A program made the position numbers and the translations under genes. This document shows, piece by piece, positions 1 to 63,336 of a stretch of DNA of 64,000 nt (position 1 is its first letter; each line of letters opens with the position of its first letter). The stretch is from assembly GCF_900106585.1 (NCBI RefSeq), contig NZ_FNWH01000005.1:311962-375961 (forward strand), written 5' to 3'. The notes beneath the pieces were generated by a model. That model was not told the origin of the DNA and searched no databases. It saw only the letters and a program-made list of their open reading frames with translations. Source of the stretch: Acidaminococcus timonensis (GTDB lineage: Bacteria > Bacillota > Negativicutes > Acidaminococcales > Acidaminococcaceae).

Positions 1-503
1 TTTCACGTAAATATGGGATGGCAAGTAGCAGCCAGCTGCTAAAGTGGGTTGCTGCTTACAAGGCATTTGGTGATAATGGACTGAAGAGATCCCGCTCTCA
101 AAAAATATACTCTTTCAAAGAAAAACTTTCTGTGGTAGAGTCTTACTTAACAAACGAAATCTCGTATCAGGAATTGGCAATTCAAGTAGGAATCAATAAT
201 CCATCCATGATTTCCAGATGGGTCAATGAATTTAAAATTGCGGGGCCGGAAGCGTTACGGCCACATAAAAAAGGCAGGAAGAGAACTTTGAACAAATCTC
301 AAACCAAAAAAACAGATCCCCAGGTTCAGCAGCCGATGGTCGACATCAGTGTGGAACATGTCCAGGAGTTAGAGGATGAACTCCTTAAACTCCGTATAGA
401 GAATGCTTTTTTAAAAGAACTGAGGAGACTGCGTTTAGAGGACGAAGCAAAAATGAGAGAGTTGCGAAAATCATCTCCAGTCTCCGAAGATCATTCAAAT
501 TGA
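1..503 (+). CDS. IS150-type transposase OrfA, 5' truncated by window
   Basis: OrfA is the DNA-binding helix-turn-helix subunit of an IS3-family transposase. The frame is open from base 3 (residues SRKYG) and the complete copy at 62703-63281 is 192 aa, so the true start lies before the window. Two helix-turn-helix segments are visible (around SSSQLLKWVAAYKAFG and QELAIQVGINNPSMISRW). They are followed by a basic linker (KKGRKRTLNK) and a C-terminal leucine-rich segment (ELEDELLKLRIENAFLKEL) that is the usual oligomerisation coiled coil. The stop TGA overlaps the TTG start of orfB by four bases, with orfB in the -1 frame. Confidence 0.92.
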   Translation, partial: SRKYGMASSSQLLKWVAAYKAFGDNGLKRSRSQKIYSFKEKLSVVESYLTNEISYQELAIQVGINNPSMISRWVNEFKIAGPEALRPHKKGRKRTLNKSQTKKTDPQVQQPMVDISVEHVQELEDELLKLRIENAFLKELRRLRLEDEAKMRELRKSSPVSEDHSN

Positions 504-1345
504 AAGACCTTCTCTCCTATACTCAAATGCCTAAAGCGACCTATATGTACTGGCAGAAACGGTTTGACCGCGTGAATCCAGACCAGGAAGTAGAGGACAA
601 AATACAGGAAATCCGCAGCCAGCATAAAGATTATGGATATCGGCGCATGACCGGTGAGCTGAAGAATCAAGGGCTTTGCGTGAACAAGAAGAAAGTTCAA
701 CGTATCATGCAGGAACTGAGCCTTCAGGTAACATCCTTTACCCGGAAAAGCCGTAAATACAGCTCCTATAAGGGTAAGGTAGGAACCATTGCTCCCAATA
801 GAATACATCGTCGTTTTGAGACGAATATCCCACATCAGAAGATTACAACCGACACTTCAGAATTCAAATACTATGAAGTAGATCCACAGGGACATCTGAC
901 CCTGCACAAGCTTTATCTGGATCCTTTCCTGGACATGTTCAATGATGAAATCATCAGCTATGGAATAGCAAAACGTCCTTCGGCTGAAAGCATACTGGAA
1001 GCTCAAGCTGAAGCAATCGAAATTACTGCTGATTGTCCGTATCGAAGAACGTTTCACTCCGATCAGGGTTGGGCATACCAAATGAAGGCCTATGCCAGGA
1101 ATCTAAAAAAAGGACGAATTTTTCAAAGCATGTCTCGAAAGGGCAACTGTCATGATAACGCTGTAATGGAGAATTTCTTCGGCTTAATGAAGCAGGAAAT
1201 GTATTATGGAGTAATCTACTACAGCTACGAAGAACTAAAAAACGCTATCGAACGATACATTAAATACTATAACGAGCAAAGGATCAAGGAAAAACTATGC
1301 TGGAAAAGTCCTGTTCAATATAGGCTTTCCTTGCAGGCAGCATAA
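500..1345 (+). CDS. IS150-type transposase OrfB (DDE integrase)
   Basis: OrfB is the catalytic rve/DDE integrase part of the IS3-family transposase. It is 281 aa and identical to the copy at 61861-62706. An HTH_21-type segment (SQHKDYGYRRMTGELK) precedes the catalytic core, with the DDE residues expected at TTDTSEF, FHSDQGWAYQ and GNCHDNAVMENFFGLMKQE. It begins at a TTG within the stop of orfA, so it is expressed by coupling or by a -1 frameshift. I see no classical A6G slippery site. It appears intact. Confidence 0.95.
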   Translation: MKDLLSYTQMPKATYMYWQKRFDRVNPDQEVEDKIQEIRSQHKDYGYRRMTGELKNQGLCVNKKKVQRIMQELSLQVTSFTRKSRKYSSYKGKVGTIAPNRIHRRFETNIPHQKITTDTSEFKYYEVDPQGHLTLHKLYLDPFLDMFNDEIISYGIAKRPSAESILEAQAEAIEITADCPYRRTFHSDQGWAYQMKAYARNLKKGRIFQSMSRKGNCHDNAVMENFFGLMKQEMYYGVIYYSYEELKNAIERYIKYYNEQRIKEKLCWKSPVQYRLSLQAA

Positions 1346-1422
1346 AAAAGTAACGAGACAGTAAAAACCATCTCGTTACTAAGGTCTAACTTTTTGGGGT
1401 CACATCATCACAGCCCCTTTTT

Positions 1423-3081
1423 TCAAATTTCATCGAAATAACTGCTGTCCTTATGGCAGATGGGACACTCAGCCGGTGGTTCCACCCCTTCACATTCATA
1501 ACCGCAGATTCGGCACCGCCATCTCTTGATTTCATCGAAATAGCTGCTGTCCTTGTGGCAGAGCGGACACTCAGCCGGCGGTTCATTGCCTTCCCAGATA
1601 TAGCCGCAGACCCGGCATTTCCATTTCCGGACCCGGTCTCCCGGCTTGGTCACTTCCACATATTCTTCTTTGGATTCCTGTTTCCGCGGGCTCTGATACT
1701 TCGTTACCGGCTCTCCCAGCATCCCGCTCCGATCCTCATACGTCGTATGGAGGATCTGTTCTGCCAGCGGGCTCAGCGGTTTCCCGTAAAATTCCCGGTA
1801 GAGTTCCAGCAGTTCCTGGTTTTCATGGCTGTTCCGGTTGGCCAGAGCAGCATCTCTCTGGTACAGGCCCTGGATCCGTTTGGCCAGCAGATCCTGCCCC
1901 TTCTGCTGCGTCCCTTTGGGCTGACCGCCACCTCCGATGCAGCCGCCGGGGCAGGTCATGACTTCGATGAATGTGTAATCCGCCAGTTTCTCCTTCTTTT
2001 TCTCCAGGAACTGACGCACATGTTCCGTGCCATAGATCACAGCCACTTTGAGGGAAAGGTCCCCCAGCCGGACCTGGGCTTCCCGGATTCCCTCCAGTCC
2101 CCTGACCGGTTCCAGATCATAGAAATCAGCAGGTGCATTATGCCCTGTGACCTGATGATATGCGGTCCGCAGAGCCGCTTCCATGACCCCGCCCGTATTG
2201 CCGAAGATCACTCCGGCCCCGGACGCTTCTCCCATGAGGGAATCATAGGGTTGGTCCTCCAGAGTGGCCAGATCTAGGCCGGCCGACCGTGCCCAGGCTG
2301 CCAGTTCCCGGGTGGTGATGACCTGATCCATGTCCCGCATTCCGGGGATATCCAGATAGGTTCCTGCCGCACCCATTTCTTCCCGGCGGATTTCGAACTT
2401 TTTGGCCGTACAGGGAGTCAGGGCCACATTGACGATCTTGCGGGGATCCAGTCCCATTTTTTGGGCAAAATACGTCTTGACCGTAGGTCCCTGCATCCCG
2501 ATGGGACTTTTGGCCGTAGAGATATGAGGCAGAAGTTCCGGATAGTACGTCTCTGCAAACTTCACCCAAGCCGGACAGCAGGAGGTAAACTGAGGCAAGG
2601 GACGGGTGTTTTGGGTCACCCGCTCCACCAGCTCCGCAGCTTCTTCCAGGATGGTCATATCCGCTGCGAAATTGGTATCCAGCACATAGTCCACGCCCAG
2701 AGCTTTCAGCAGGGCCACCATCTTGCCCTGGACAAAGCTGCCGTCCGGCAGGCCGAATTCTTCCCCCAGAGAAATCCGCACTGAGGGGGAAGTATTCACC
2801 ACCACGATTTTATCCGGGTCGGCCACGGCCTGACGCACCGTTTCCCATTCTGGAGTTTCCACGATGGAATCCACCGGACACACATTGGCACACTGGCCAC
2901 AATGGATACAAATGGGCACATCATCTGTCTGACTCAGGTCATAGTAACCCAGTACACCGATCTGATCCCGGCATACATCCCGACACTTCCCACAGCGGAC
3001 GCACAGGTCTTCCCGGCGCAGGATGGCCGGATTCCCCGGCTCGATCGGTACCCGGATATCCGGTGAAAGATGTTTGCTCAT
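1423..3081 (-). CDS. hydA: [FeFe]-hydrogenase with two C-terminal rubredoxin-like domains
   Basis: Iron-only hydrogenase catalysing reversible proton reduction to H2, the usual electron sink of amino-acid fermenters. Residues 27-37 (CxxCxxCxxxC) and 58-68 hold two [4Fe-4S] ferredoxin clusters. The H-cluster motifs are TSCCPAW (166-172), TPCTAKK (222-228) and CPGGCIGGGG near residue 380. All cluster cysteines are present, but the L2 motif has Thr222 where most family members have Met. The last ~75 residues are two near-identical rubredoxin-like units, each with CRxCGY and CPxCHKDSSYFDEI, arising from a tandem duplication visible in the DNA (about 1430-1640). A rubredoxin tail suggests electron exchange with rubrerythrin/rubredoxin partners (inference). 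GGGGGAG lies 5 bases before the ATG. An IS ends 15 bp beyond the stop codon. No hydEFG maturase genes are in the window. Confidence 0.95.
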   Translation of the reverse strand: MSKHLSPDIRVPIEPGNPAILRREDLCVRCGKCRDVCRDQIGVLGYYDLSQTDDVPICIHCGQCANVCPVDSIVETPEWETVRQAVADPDKIVVVNTSPSVRISLGEEFGLPDGSFVQGKMVALLKALGVDYVLDTNFAADMTILEEAAELVERVTQNTRPLPQFTSCCPAWVKFAETYYPELLPHISTAKSPIGMQGPTVKTYFAQKMGLDPRKIVNVALTPCTAKKFEIRREEMGAAGTYLDIPGMRDMDQVITTRELAAWARSAGLDLATLEDQPYDSLMGEASGAGVIFGNTGGVMEAALRTAYHQVTGHNAPADFYDLEPVRGLEGIREAQVRLGDLSLKVAVIYGTEHVRQFLEKKKEKLADYTFIEVMTCPGGCIGGGGQPKGTQQKGQDLLAKRIQGLYQRDAALANRNSHENQELLELYREFYGKPLSPLAEQILHTTYEDRSGMLGEPVTKYQSPRKQESKEEYVEVTKPGDRVRKWKCRVCGYIWEGNEPPAECPLCHKDSSYFDEIKRWRCRICGYECEGVEPPAECPICHKDSSYFDEI

Positions 3082-16558: not shown

Positions 16559-16645
16559 ACAGGGCCCCTGGCCTGTTACGCGAGAGCACTGAGCTGACCC
16601 CCAATTGTTAGACCAAAAATCTAACAATTGGGGGTTAGTTTTTTT

Positions 16646-17224
16646 ATGGCAAGACACAGCTATGAATTTAAGAAAAAAATAGTACTGGAATACTTGAACA
16701 GTGACAAAGGGTGTATTTCTATTTCACGTAAATATGGGATGGCAAGTAGCAGCCAGCTGCTAAAGTGGGCTGCTGCTTACAAGGCATTTGGAGATAATGG
16801 TCTGAAGAGATCTCGCTCTCAAAAAATATACTCTTTCAAAGAAAAACTTTCTGTGGTAGAGTCTTACTTAACAAATGAAATCTCATATCAGGAATTGGCA
16901 ATTCGTGTAGGAATCAACAATCCGTCATTGATTTCCAGATGGGTCAATGAATTTAAAATTGCGGGGCCGGATGCGTTACGGTCACATAAAAAAGGTAGGA
17001 AAAAGACTTTGAGCCAATCAAAACCCAAAAAAACAGATACCCAGGTTCAACAACCGATGGTCAACATCAGTGTGGAACATGTCCAGGAGTTAGAGAATGA
17101 AAACCTTAAACTCCGAATAGAGAATGCTTTTTTAAAAGAACTGAGGAGACTGCGTTTAGAGGACGAAGCAAAAATGAGAGAGTTGCGAAAATCATCTCCA
17201 GTCTCCGAGGATCATTCAAGTTGA
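16646..17224 (+). CDS. IS150-type transposase OrfA
   Basis: 192 aa from the ATG at 16646 (MARHSYEFKKKIVLEYLN); a longer reading from 16628 begins inside the terminal hairpin and is unlikely. It has two helix-turn-helix segments and a C-terminal leucine-rich coiled coil. It differs from copies 1 and 4 at several places (for example NNPSLISR, RKKTLSQSK). The GGGGG that could act as SD is in the 3' arm of the left-end hairpin, so transcripts entering from outside would hide it. The stop overlaps the orfB start. Confidence 0.93.
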   Translation: MARHSYEFKKKIVLEYLNSDKGCISISRKYGMASSSQLLKWAAAYKAFGDNGLKRSRSQKIYSFKEKLSVVESYLTNEISYQELAIRVGINNPSLISRWVNEFKIAGPDALRSHKKGRKKTLSQSKPKKTDTQVQQPMVNISVEHVQELENENLKLRIENAFLKELRRLRLEDEAKMRELRKSSPVSEDHSS

Positions 17225-18066
17225 AAGACATTCTCTCCTATACGCAAATGCCCAAAGCAACCTATATGTACTGGCAGAAACGGTTTGACCGCGAGAATCC
17301 AGACCAGGAAGTAGAGGAGAAAATACAGGAAATCCGCAGCCAGCATAAAGATTATGGATACCGTCGCATGACCGGTGAGCTAAAGAACCAAGGGATTTGC
17401 GTGAACAAGAAGAAAGTTCAACGTATCATGCAGAAACTGAGCCTTCAGGTAACATCTTTTACCCGGAAGAGCCGTAAATACAGCTCCTATAAGGGTAAGG
17501 TAGGAACCATTGCTCCAAATAGGATACATCGTCGTTTTGAGACGAATATCCCTCACCAGAAGATTACGACCGACACTTCAGAATTCAAATACTATGAAGC
17601 AGATTCACAGGGACATTTGACTCTGCGCAAGCTTTATCTGGATCCTTTCCTGGACATGTTCAATAATGAAATCATCAGCTATGGAATAGCCAAATATCCT
17701 TCGGCTAACAGCATACTGGAAGCTCAAGCCAAAGCAATCAAAATTACTGCTGATTGTCCGTATCGAAGAACATTTCACTCCGATCAGGGCTGGGCATACC
17801 AAATGAAATTCTATACCAAAAGACTAAAAAACGAACGAATTTTTCAGAGCATGTCTCGAAAAGGCAACTGTCATGATAACGCTGTAATGGAAAACTTCTT
17901 CGGCTTACTGAAGCAGGAAATATATTACGGAGTGACCTACTACAGCTACAAAGAATTAAAAGGCGCTATCGAACGATACATCAAATACTATAACGAGCAA
18001 AGAATCAAGGAAAAACTGGGCTGGAAAAGTCCTGTTCAATACAGGCTTTCCTTGCAGGCAGCATAA
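17221..18066 (+). CDS. IS150-type transposase OrfB (DDE integrase)
   Basis: 281 aa, identical to the protein encoded at 35057-35902 and slightly different from copies 1 and 4. The catalytic motifs TTDTSEF, FHSDQGWAYQ and NAVMENFFGLLKQE are present. It starts at a TTG overlapping the orfA stop (TTGA) in the -1 frame. It appears functional. Confidence 0.95.
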   Translation: MKDILSYTQMPKATYMYWQKRFDRENPDQEVEEKIQEIRSQHKDYGYRRMTGELKNQGICVNKKKVQRIMQKLSLQVTSFTRKSRKYSSYKGKVGTIAPNRIHRRFETNIPHQKITTDTSEFKYYEADSQGHLTLRKLYLDPFLDMFNNEIISYGIAKYPSANSILEAQAKAIKITADCPYRRTFHSDQGWAYQMKFYTKRLKNERIFQSMSRKGNCHDNAVMENFFGLLKQEIYYGVTYYSYKELKGAIERYIKYYNEQRIKEKLGWKSPVQYRLSLQAA

Positions 18067-18279
18067 AAAAGTAACGAGACGGTAAAAACCATCTCGTTAC
18101 TAAGGTCTAACTTTTTGGGGTCACATCACACCGCAACTGCGGTGCTCTCTTTTTGTTATGCGTTCAAGCTATGGCTATCGCTACTTTTTCGGTATTAGCC
18201 CAATCCCTACCTTTATGGTATCCTAAGGCCATACTTTTTCAAAAGACCTCTGAAATACCCATTGAAAGGAATGAATATC

Positions 18280-34970: not shown

Positions 34971-35056
34971 TAAAAAAGAGAGCTGTGAACGATTTGATGT
35001 GACCCCAAAAAGTTAGACCTTAGTAACGAGATGGTTTTTACCGTCTCGTTACTTTT

Positions 35057-35902
35057 TTATGCTGCCTGCAAGGAAAGCCTGTATTGAACAGGACTTTTCC
35101 AGCCCAGTTTTTCCTTGATTCTTTGCTCGTTATAGTATTTGATGTATCGTTCGATAGCGCCTTTTAATTCTTTGTAGCTGTAGTAGGTCACTCCGTAATA
35201 TATTTCCTGCTTCAGTAAGCCGAAGAAGTTTTCCATTACAGCGTTATCATGACAGTTGCCTTTTCGAGACATGCTCTGAAAAATTCGTTCGTTTTTTAGT
35301 CTTTTGGTATAGAATTTCATTTGGTATGCCCAGCCCTGATCGGAGTGAAATGTTCTTCGATACGGACAATCAGCAGTAATTTTGATTGCTTTGGCTTGAG
35401 CTTCCAGTATGCTGTTAGCCGAAGGATATTTGGCTATTCCATAGCTGATGATTTCATTATTGAACATGTCCAGGAAAGGATCCAGATAAAGCTTGCGCAG
35501 AGTCAAATGTCCCTGTGAATCTGCTTCATAGTATTTGAATTCTGAAGTGTCGGTCGTAATCTTCTGGTGAGGGATATTCGTCTCAAAACGACGATGTATC
35601 CTATTTGGAGCAATGGTTCCTACCTTACCCTTATAGGAGCTGTATTTACGGCTCTTCCGGGTAAAAGATGTTACCTGAAGGCTCAGTTTCTGCATGATAC
35701 GTTGAACTTTCTTCTTGTTCACGCAAATCCCTTGGTTCTTTAGCTCACCGGTCATGCGACGGTATCCATAATCTTTATGCTGGCTGCGGATTTCCTGTAT
35801 TTTCTCCTCTACTTCCTGGTCTGGATTCTCGCGGTCAAACCGTTTCTGCCAGTACATATAGGTTGCTTTGGGCATTTGCGTATAGGAGAGAATGTCTTTC
35901 AA
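35057..35902 (-). CDS. IS150-type transposase OrfB (DDE integrase)
   Basis: 281 aa, identical to the product of 17221-18066, with the catalytic motifs TTDTSEF, FHSDQGWAYQ and NAVMENFFGLLKQE intact. TTG start within the orfA stop. Confidence 0.95.
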   Translation of the reverse strand: MKDILSYTQMPKATYMYWQKRFDRENPDQEVEEKIQEIRSQHKDYGYRRMTGELKNQGICVNKKKVQRIMQKLSLQVTSFTRKSRKYSSYKGKVGTIAPNRIHRRFETNIPHQKITTDTSEFKYYEADSQGHLTLRKLYLDPFLDMFNNEIISYGIAKYPSANSILEAQAKAIKITADCPYRRTFHSDQGWAYQMKFYTKRLKNERIFQSMSRKGNCHDNAVMENFFGLLKQEIYYGVTYYSYKELKGAIERYIKYYNEQRIKEKLGWKSPVQYRLSLQAA

Positions 35903-36477
35903 CTTGAATGATCCTCGGAGACTGGAGATGATTTTCGCAACTCTCTCATTTTTGCTTCGTCCTCTAAACGCAGTCTCCTCAGTTCTTTTAAAAAAGCATT
36001 CTCTATTCGGAGTTTAAGGTTTTCATTCTCTAACTCCTGGACATGTTCCACACTGATGTTGACCATCGGTTGTTGAACCTGGGTATCTGTTTTTTTGGGT
36101 TTTGATTGGCTCAAAGTCTTTTTCCTACCTTTTTTATGTGACCGTAACGCATCCGGCCCCGCAATTTTAAATTCATTGACCCATCTGGAAATCAATGACG
36201 GATTGTTGATTCCTACACGAATTGCCAATTCCTGATATGAGATTTCATTTGTTAAGTAAGACTCTACCACAGAAAGTTTTTCTTTGAAAGAGTATATTTT
36301 TTGAGAGCGAGATCTCTTCAGACCATTATCTCCAAATGCCTTGTAAGCAGCAGCCCACTTTAGCAGCTGGCTGCTACTTGCCATCCCATATTTACGTGAA
36401 ATAGAAATACACCCTTTGTCACTGTTCAAGTATTCCAGTACTATTTTTTTCTTAAATTCATAGCTGTGTCTTGCCAT
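35899..36477 (-). CDS. IS150-type transposase OrfA
   Basis: 192 aa from MARHSYEF at 36477, identical to the product of 16646-17224. HTH segments and a C-terminal coiled coil. The left-end hairpin of the element lies 12 bases before the start codon. Confidence 0.93.
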   Translation of the reverse strand: MARHSYEFKKKIVLEYLNSDKGCISISRKYGMASSSQLLKWAAAYKAFGDNGLKRSRSQKIYSFKEKLSVVESYLTNEISYQELAIRVGINNPSLISRWVNEFKIAGPDALRSHKKGRKKTLSQSKPKKTDTQVQQPMVNISVEHVQELENENLKLRIENAFLKELRRLRLEDEAKMRELRKSSPVSEDHSS

Positions 36478-36533
36478 AAAAAAACTAACCCCCAATTGTT
36501 AGATTTTTGGTCTAACAATTGGGGGTCAGCTCA

Positions 36534-36643
36534 ATTTTTTCACAGCTCTCTTTTTTGCCAGCGTAAGCTGGCTTCCATCAGCTAGTGACTATTTGACTAG
36601 TGACTAGTGACGGGTGTGTGAAAAAGTATTTTTCACGCCCCTT
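36534..36643 (-). repeat. Intergenic repeat, copy R5, reversed and degenerate
   Basis: Read on the minus strand it has hairpin A (GGGCGTGAAAAAT / TTTTTCACACACCC region), heptamers TCACTAG (36581-36611), GATGGAAGCCAGCTTACGCT, then a hairpin in the place of B (AGAGAGCTGTGAA...), which is interrupted by IS copy 3. It lies at the 3' ends of ilvN and the MBL-fold gene. Confidence 0.8.
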
Positions 36644-61789: not shown

Positions 61790-61860
61790 ATTGAATTGTG
61801 ATGTGACCCCAAAAAGTTAGACCTTAGTAACGAGATGGTTTTTACTGTCTCGTTACTTTT

Positions 61861-62706
61861 TTATGCTGCCTGCAAGGAAAGCCTATATTGAACAGGACTT
61901 TTCCAGCATAGTTTTTCCTTGATCCTTTGCTCGTTATAGTATTTAATGTATCGTTCGATAGCGTTTTTTAGTTCTTCGTAGCTGTAGTAGATTACTCCAT
62001 AATACATTTCCTGCTTCATTAAGCCGAAGAAATTCTCCATTACAGCGTTATCATGACAGTTGCCCTTTCGAGACATGCTTTGAAAAATTCGTCCTTTTTT
62101 TAGATTCCTGGCATAGGCCTTCATTTGGTATGCCCAACCCTGATCGGAGTGAAACGTTCTTCGATACGGACAATCAGCAGTAATTTCGATTGCTTCAGCT
62201 TGAGCTTCCAGTATGCTTTCAGCCGAAGGACGTTTTGCTATTCCATAGCTGATGATTTCATCATTGAACATGTCCAGGAAAGGATCCAGATAAAGCTTGT
62301 GCAGGGTCAGATGTCCCTGTGGATCTACTTCATAGTATTTGAATTCTGAAGTGTCGGTTGTAATCTTCTGATGTGGGATATTCGTCTCAAAACGACGATG
62401 TATTCTATTGGGAGCAATGGTTCCTACCTTACCCTTATAGGAGCTGTATTTACGGCTTTTCCGGGTAAAGGATGTTACCTGAAGGCTCAGTTCCTGCATG
62501 ATACGTTGAACTTTCTTCTTGTTCACGCAAAGCCCTTGATTCTTCAGCTCACCGGTCATGCGCCGATATCCATAATCTTTATGCTGGCTGCGGATTTCCT
62601 GTATTTTGTCCTCTACTTCCTGGTCTGGATTCACGCGGTCAAACCGTTTCTGCCAGTACATATAGGTCGCTTTAGGCATTTGAGTATAGGAGAGAAGGTC
62701 TTTCAA
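61861..62706 (-). CDS. IS150-type transposase OrfB (DDE integrase)
   Basis: 281 aa, identical to the product of 500-1345 and intact at the catalytic motifs. TTG start overlapping the orfA stop. Confidence 0.95.
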   Translation of the reverse strand: MKDLLSYTQMPKATYMYWQKRFDRVNPDQEVEDKIQEIRSQHKDYGYRRMTGELKNQGLCVNKKKVQRIMQELSLQVTSFTRKSRKYSSYKGKVGTIAPNRIHRRFETNIPHQKITTDTSEFKYYEVDPQGHLTLHKLYLDPFLDMFNDEIISYGIAKRPSAESILEAQAEAIEITADCPYRRTFHSDQGWAYQMKAYARNLKKGRIFQSMSRKGNCHDNAVMENFFGLMKQEMYYGVIYYSYEELKNAIERYIKYYNEQRIKEKLCWKSPVQYRLSLQAA

Positions 62707-63281
62707 TTTGAATGATCTTCGGAGACTGGAGATGATTTTCGCAACTCTCTCATTTTTGCTTCGTCCTCTAAACGCAGTCTCCTCAGTTCTTTTAAAAAAG
62801 CATTCTCTATACGGAGTTTAAGGAGTTCATCCTCTAACTCCTGGACATGTTCCACACTGATGTCGACCATCGGCTGCTGAACCTGGGGATCTGTTTTTTT
62901 GGTTTGAGATTTGTTCAAAGTTCTCTTCCTGCCTTTTTTATGTGGCCGTAACGCTTCCGGCCCCGCAATTTTAAATTCATTGACCCATCTGGAAATCATG
63001 GATGGATTATTGATTCCTACTTGAATTGCCAATTCCTGATACGAGATTTCGTTTGTTAAGTAAGACTCTACCACAGAAAGTTTTTCTTTGAAAGAGTATA
63101 TTTTTTGAGAGCGGGATCTCTTCAGTCCATTATCACCAAATGCCTTGTAAGCAGCAACCCACTTTAGCAGCTGGCTGCTACTTGCCATCCCATATTTACG
63201 TGAAATAGAAATACACCCTTCGTCACTGTTCAAGTATTCCAGTACTATTTTTTTCTTAAATTCATAGTTGTGTTTTGCCAT
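62703..63281 (-). CDS. IS150-type transposase OrfA
   Basis: 192 aa, beginning MAKHNYEFKKKIVLEYLN; the full-length counterpart of the truncated OrfA at the window start. HTH segments and a C-terminal leucine-rich coiled coil. Confidence 0.94.
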   Translation of the reverse strand: MAKHNYEFKKKIVLEYLNSDEGCISISRKYGMASSSQLLKWVAAYKAFGDNGLKRSRSQKIYSFKEKLSVVESYLTNEISYQELAIQVGINNPSMISRWVNEFKIAGPEALRPHKKGRKRTLNKSQTKKTDPQVQQPMVDISVEHVQELEDELLKLRIENAFLKELRRLRLEDEAKMRELRKSSPVSEDHSN

Positions 63282-63336
63282 AAAAAACTGACCCCCAATT
63301 GTTAGATTTTTGGTCTAACAATTGGGGGTCAGCTCA

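Follow-up and report, generated by a model that had tools for sequence, protein, structure and literature searches.

The window analyzed here, a stretch of 64,000 nucleotides from Acidaminococcus timonensis, harbors an IS3-family element of the IS150 type, 1538–1539 bp long, in four copies. Copy 2 is complete (16590..18128, + strand, 1539 bp) and is identical in sequence to copy 3 (34995..36533, − strand) and to eight copies elsewhere in the genome. Altogether, the window genome holds 10 identical full-length copies and 6 copies of a 93–94% variant. Copy 1 (1..1407, + strand, truncated by the window edge) and copy 4 (61799..63336, − strand) belong to this variant, a near relative of which is present in 22 copies in the congeneric Acidaminococcus massiliensis (G003).

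The ends of copy 2, TGAGCTGACCCC and TGATGTGACCCC, are inverted repeats of the 5'-TG...CA-3' type found in the IS3 family. Between them lie two overlapping frames on the + strand. OrfA (16628..17224, 198 aa) matches HTH_28 in two stretches as well as HTH_Tnp_1, and OrfB (17221..18066, 281 aa) carries the DDE integrase core and scores 242.9 bits against NF033516 (IS3 transposase; cut-off 160). The transposase domain matches (rve, rve_2, HTH_21, and HTH_28) place the DDE core in the second frame, after the HTH-bearing OrfA. The element belongs to the IS150 subgroup, as OrfB groups with that of IS150 and the OrfA frame spans about 180–250 codons, compared with about 105 in the controls. In the OrfB tree, IS150, G310, G265, and G296 share one branch, apart from G115, G268, and G289, with a support of 100/99; the branches are long, and the details are tentative.

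Restored insertion sites in the window

Empty sites were reconstructed by removing the element and one 3-bp duplicate, since the target duplication is 3 bp in most copies. Copy 2 is flanked by CAC duplications (16587..16589 and 18129..18131) and separates the interrupted 5' arm of the activase terminator (16582..16589, + strand) from the rest of that arm, the loop, the 3' arm, and the T-run (18132..18154, + strand). Restored, the site is GAGAGCACCGCA-ac-TGCGGTGCTCTC-TTTTT, a 12-bp stem with a T-run, just as an earlier note on this DNA had proposed from the removal of the element and one CAC. At copy 3, the left flank (34971..34994, + strand) comprises the 5' arm of the ilvN terminator with some of its loop and ends in a duplicated ATT, and the second ATT is followed by the loop remainder, the 3' arm, and the T-run (36534..36557, + strand). 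The restored sequence, TAAAAAAGAGAGCTGTGAA-cgatttt-TTCACAGCTCTCTTTTTTG, agrees with the placement of this copy in the terminator loop and locates the insertion at the hairpin center. For copy 1, only the right half of the hydA terminator that it interrupts lies in the window (1408..1425), starting with the TCA duplication. The complete version of this copy, read from the genome (L014), shows the same TCA duplication inside AAAAAAAGGGCTGTGAA-aaaaatca-TTCACAGCCCCTTTTTT, so that the half-terminator noticed earlier is one part of a whole hairpin. A strong terminator hairpin is thus restored at copies 1, 2, and 3, and the claim that three of the four window copies lie in terminators holds. The restored site of copy 4, with a TTG duplication, contains no hairpin and is located directly behind a start codon.

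Intact terminators occupy the orthologous positions in sister genomes, where an uninterrupted strong terminator follows ilvN in 5/5 cases and the activase gene ends close to a terminator-type hairpin in 6/8. Separately, four Acidaminococcus insertions, including window copy 4 (L013), are situated near a start codon (the others are L012, L015, and L085). They follow or adjoin a Shine-Dalgarno stretch rich in A or in G, which resembles one half of a terminator.

Insertions across genomes and within the IS3 family

We collected 86 insertion sites from Acidaminococcus, Enterococcus, Clostridium, Facklamia, and Lachnospiraceae. A terminator-type hairpin was defined as an ungapped stem scoring 18 or more with at least 5 A or T in the 7 bases at the stem base, and the same criterion was applied to the sites and to the background, which consisted of intergenic DNA lying no more than 120 nt past the 3' ends of genes and was taken from two genomes (20 stretches of 20 kb per genome). 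Such hairpins contain 63 of the 86 sites, compared with 9.6 expected (p about 1e-41), so the insertions in this and related genomes are enriched in terminators well beyond the general intergenic bias of insertion sequences, the comparison on which the earlier note had let its reading depend. Hairpin positions make up about 11% of the background, in contrast to 73% of the observed sites, and the enrichment persists (p = 8e-21) when the background is set at 0.25. After dropping sites that lack a 3-bp duplication and those whose target resembles an end of another insertion sequence, 51/64 remain in hairpins. The number of base pairs spanning the site in the predicted fold proved uninformative as a measure, with about 9 pairs in the background, and was replaced by the hairpin criterion and the folding energy.

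The main type in the window genome has 9/10 sites in terminator hairpins, and the corresponding values are 19/22 in A. massiliensis, 5/5 in Clostridium cadaveris, 4/4 in C. neonatale, and 2/2 in both Facklamia and E. columbae. Lachnospiraceae AC2031 also shows 4/4, with a local background of zero that makes the group p value unusable. Lower fractions were obtained for the 93–94% variant in the window genome (only 2/6), for E. cecorum (only 8/15), and for the remaining hosts together (8/16).

Several copies have unusual surroundings. Five (L006, L016, L059, L089, and L090) lack a duplication, some of them with mismatched hairpin halves, which may point to recombination between copies. In E. cecorum, a tandem array of partial copies (C3:174774-178337, L234–L236) includes one insertion that adjoins the OrfA-like sequence of another copy. 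Several Lachnospiraceae copies (L158, L160, L161, L172, L202, L203, and L207) lie in or beside a common palindrome, which in L161 and L172 directly precedes an OrfA-like frame (MRYSYEFKRK...) and looks like the hairpin end of another insertion sequence.

Within the hairpin, the insertion lies on average 3.1 nt from the center, for a half-span of 18.7, and it tracks the center (sd 3.65 nt) also as hairpins lengthen; this concentration is highly significant (KS p about 1e-18). Locking to one of the tracts was rejected, as the spread is larger when measured from the A-tract (sd 6.9) or the T-tract (sd 5.7). No consensus of the duplication or the flanks was found among the sites, and there is no clear bias of orientation relative to the gene (15 co-directional versus 11 opposite insertions between tandem gene pairs). 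The large enrichment and the position near the hairpin center support the earlier proposal that terminators serve as safe sites.

The trait was also found in distant IS150-type elements, whose OrfB is 35–47% identical. Eleven of 17 lie in terminator hairpins and 2 in genes. In contrast, IS3 elements outside the IS150-type branch, sampled in other host genomes, are found in hairpins in 0/16 cases and in genes in 9/16; the difference between 11/17 and 0/16 is significant (p 9e-5), although control elements from other genomes make the comparison weaker. IS256-type elements were dropped as in-genome controls because they had too few copies. IS150 of E. coli is close to the window element in subgroup, ends, its two ORFs, its long OrfA, and an OrfB 43% identical. 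However, none of its 15 sampled places, several of which are the same hokA and mokC loci, is in a terminator hairpin, many are in hok/mok loci, and it has no left-end fold-back. Terminator targeting is therefore neither general to the IS3 family nor universal in the IS150 subgroup. Most of the sampled E. coli copies (L326–L340) occupy type I toxin loci of the hok/mok/ibs kinds; a GRGGC motif stands some 2 nt to the right of the cut, and AGCCC is frequent some 20 nt to its left. The target of E. coli IS150 is apparently a sequence-defined dyad.

A literature search that covered few subscription papers and not ISfinder turned up no account of terminator targeting in the IS3 family, and an earlier description is possible. 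IS1447 of Clostridium thermocellum, also from the Firmicutes, is annotated to the IS150 subgroup and was compared through this annotation; the passages found in PMC6211511 are silent on terminator targeting.

The probable cue and alternative explanations

Terminator targeting is well supported, and the class of phenomenon is already known. As to what is recognized, we favor a dyad, to which structure or transcription may contribute. A dyad of A-tract and G, or a terminator in use, fits the sites better than a bare cruciform. Sites containing both half-sites (A-tract/G and C/T-tract) but no hairpin by our criterion number 4, compared with 0.3 expected, an enrichment about equal to that of hairpins, although one or more of these, L087 among them, is in fact a hairpin that the overlap rule failed to catch. 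Sites with neither hairpin nor half-sites number 3 versus 54 expected, an almost twenty-fold depletion. In a small check by eye of five new E. cecorum copies, two were in a hairpin and the other three (3/3) had half-sites. As the half-site motif was defined after the sites had been seen, the dyad cue is a lead only.

It is also conceivable, although unlikely, that DNA structure is the sole cue, with any cruciform or hairpin being a target and terminators merely the commonest. Insertions locked to the center, with no sequence consensus at the cut, are consistent with this, and hairpin recognition has been described in other systems. IS1272 and TnSha1 of the IS1182 family insert into hairpins, several of them confirmed terminators, and depend little on primary sequence (PMC4923244, PMC5678879), and for group IIC introns, DNA hairpins such as those of terminators are a recognition determinant (PMC3898094). 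Both resemble the window element in their targets but differ in mechanism. IS1272, from another family, removes some of the hairpin and leaves no duplication (PMC4923244, PMC5678879), whereas the window element makes a 3-bp duplication and the whole hairpin is recovered on restoration, which is not the hairpin replacement of the IS1272 type. Group IIC introns are retroelements with RNA-based insertion, whereas the window element has a DDE transposase. Hairpins without an A/T tract received 0/29 of the hairpin insertions in two genomes but make up about half of the weaker intergenic hairpins, a contrast that weakens at hairpin scores of at least 25 (p 0.2 and 0.02). That tract-less hairpins are not hit makes bare cruciform recognition unlikely. 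Together with the equal enrichment of the half-site-only sites (n = 4), this leaves the hairpin or cruciform recognition suggested in the earlier note not established.

The need for an A/T tract would suit functional terminators, and the transposase might then be drawn to paused polymerase or to transcript structure at active terminators. We consider such coupling to transcription quite unlikely, as the insertions show no clear orientation bias and the start-codon sites would need a separate cause.

A third possibility is that the target is a repeat family that serves as terminator only incidentally. IS1397 and ISKpn1, also of the IS3 family, insert into intergenic REP palindromes, and the transposase is held responsible for this choice (PMC1525189). 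They share with the window element a palindromic, intergenic target; theirs is a defined enterobacterial repeat family, whereas the window element uses diverse terminators in several Gram-positive or related families. In two Acidaminococcus genomes, recurrent stems (CTGTGAA, CTGTTGC, etc.) are over-represented in the hit hairpins, with 7/11 and 15/19 versus 23% and 44% (p about 0.009 per genome). Nevertheless, several Acidaminococcus targets lack these stems, and the hit hairpins in Enterococcus, Clostridium, and Facklamia are different and diverse in sequence, so that a REP-like target is very doubtful. Acidaminococcus terminators at unrelated genes share stems (TGTGAAA, CTGTGAA; CTGTTGC, CAGCCCC; L095–L134), and orthologous terminators (L342–L346) vary from one species to another; it looks as though stems had been copied from terminator to terminator.

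Finally, survivorship alone, with insertion anywhere and persistence only of harmless copies near gene ends, would account for the mostly intergenic insertions, a bias that insertion sequences generally show, but it is extremely improbable given the low hairpin background just downstream of genes, the gene insertions of the other IS3 elements, and the centering within the hairpin, a pattern that selection for harmless insertions or against gene damage would not yield.

Predicted terminators carried by the element

Both ends of the window element contain predicted inward-facing, terminator-like hairpins. At the left end, the terminal repeat and an inverted copy of it that comes next form a 22-bp fold-back stem (16591..16646, + strand; −34.3 kcal/mol) with a T-run before OrfA. 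At the right end, a 14-bp stem with a T-run (18065..18101, − strand) has a predicted energy of about −22 kcal/mol. Such hairpins are usually explained as shielding the transposase gene from outside transcription. With hairpins facing inward at both ends, transcripts entering from either side should stop within the element. All 13 of the terminator-targeting elements that were examined have the left-end fold-back (z −3.6 to −10.4), in contrast to E. coli IS150 and three controls, which show no fold-back (z −2.2 to +1.0).

We propose that the IS150-type element selects strong intrinsic terminators, inserts within a few bases of their center, and brings replacement terminators with it, leaving the insertion nearly neutral; we consider this explanation very probable. 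The most likely cue would be a symmetric arrangement in which an A-tract and a G-rich arm face a C-rich arm and a T-tract. The transposase may read this dyad, as OrfA has HTH domains, and transcription of the target terminator would perhaps assist. Insertion would then take place a few bases from the hairpin center, with a 3-bp duplication. The left-end fold-back terminator, joined in close relatives by the right-end one, would stop transcripts from both sides, so that the destroyed host terminator would be replaced by one borne by the element. Whether a widespread IS150-type lineage has evolved such an exchange of terminator for terminator, combining homing to an A-tract dyad with terminators in its own ends and thereby neutralizing its own insertion, seems to us evenly balanced.

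Here a DDE transposase lineage uses terminators as genome-wide safe sites, and its insertion appears to restore the function that it destroys. This would account for the multiplication of an element common in gut and clostridial bacteria with little harm to the host, and it bears on how insertion sequences attain high copy number. Recognition of a structural or dyad signal becomes testable, and the element might serve as a tool for placing DNA behind genes.

The end hairpins vary among the relatives. The distant IS150-type elements showed no terminator at the right end, and the energy of the right-end hairpin is not unusual in the C. cadaveris and Enterococcus elements. Most close relatives have the second hairpin with a T-run at the right end, and in some relatives the T-run of the left end is shorter or interrupted.
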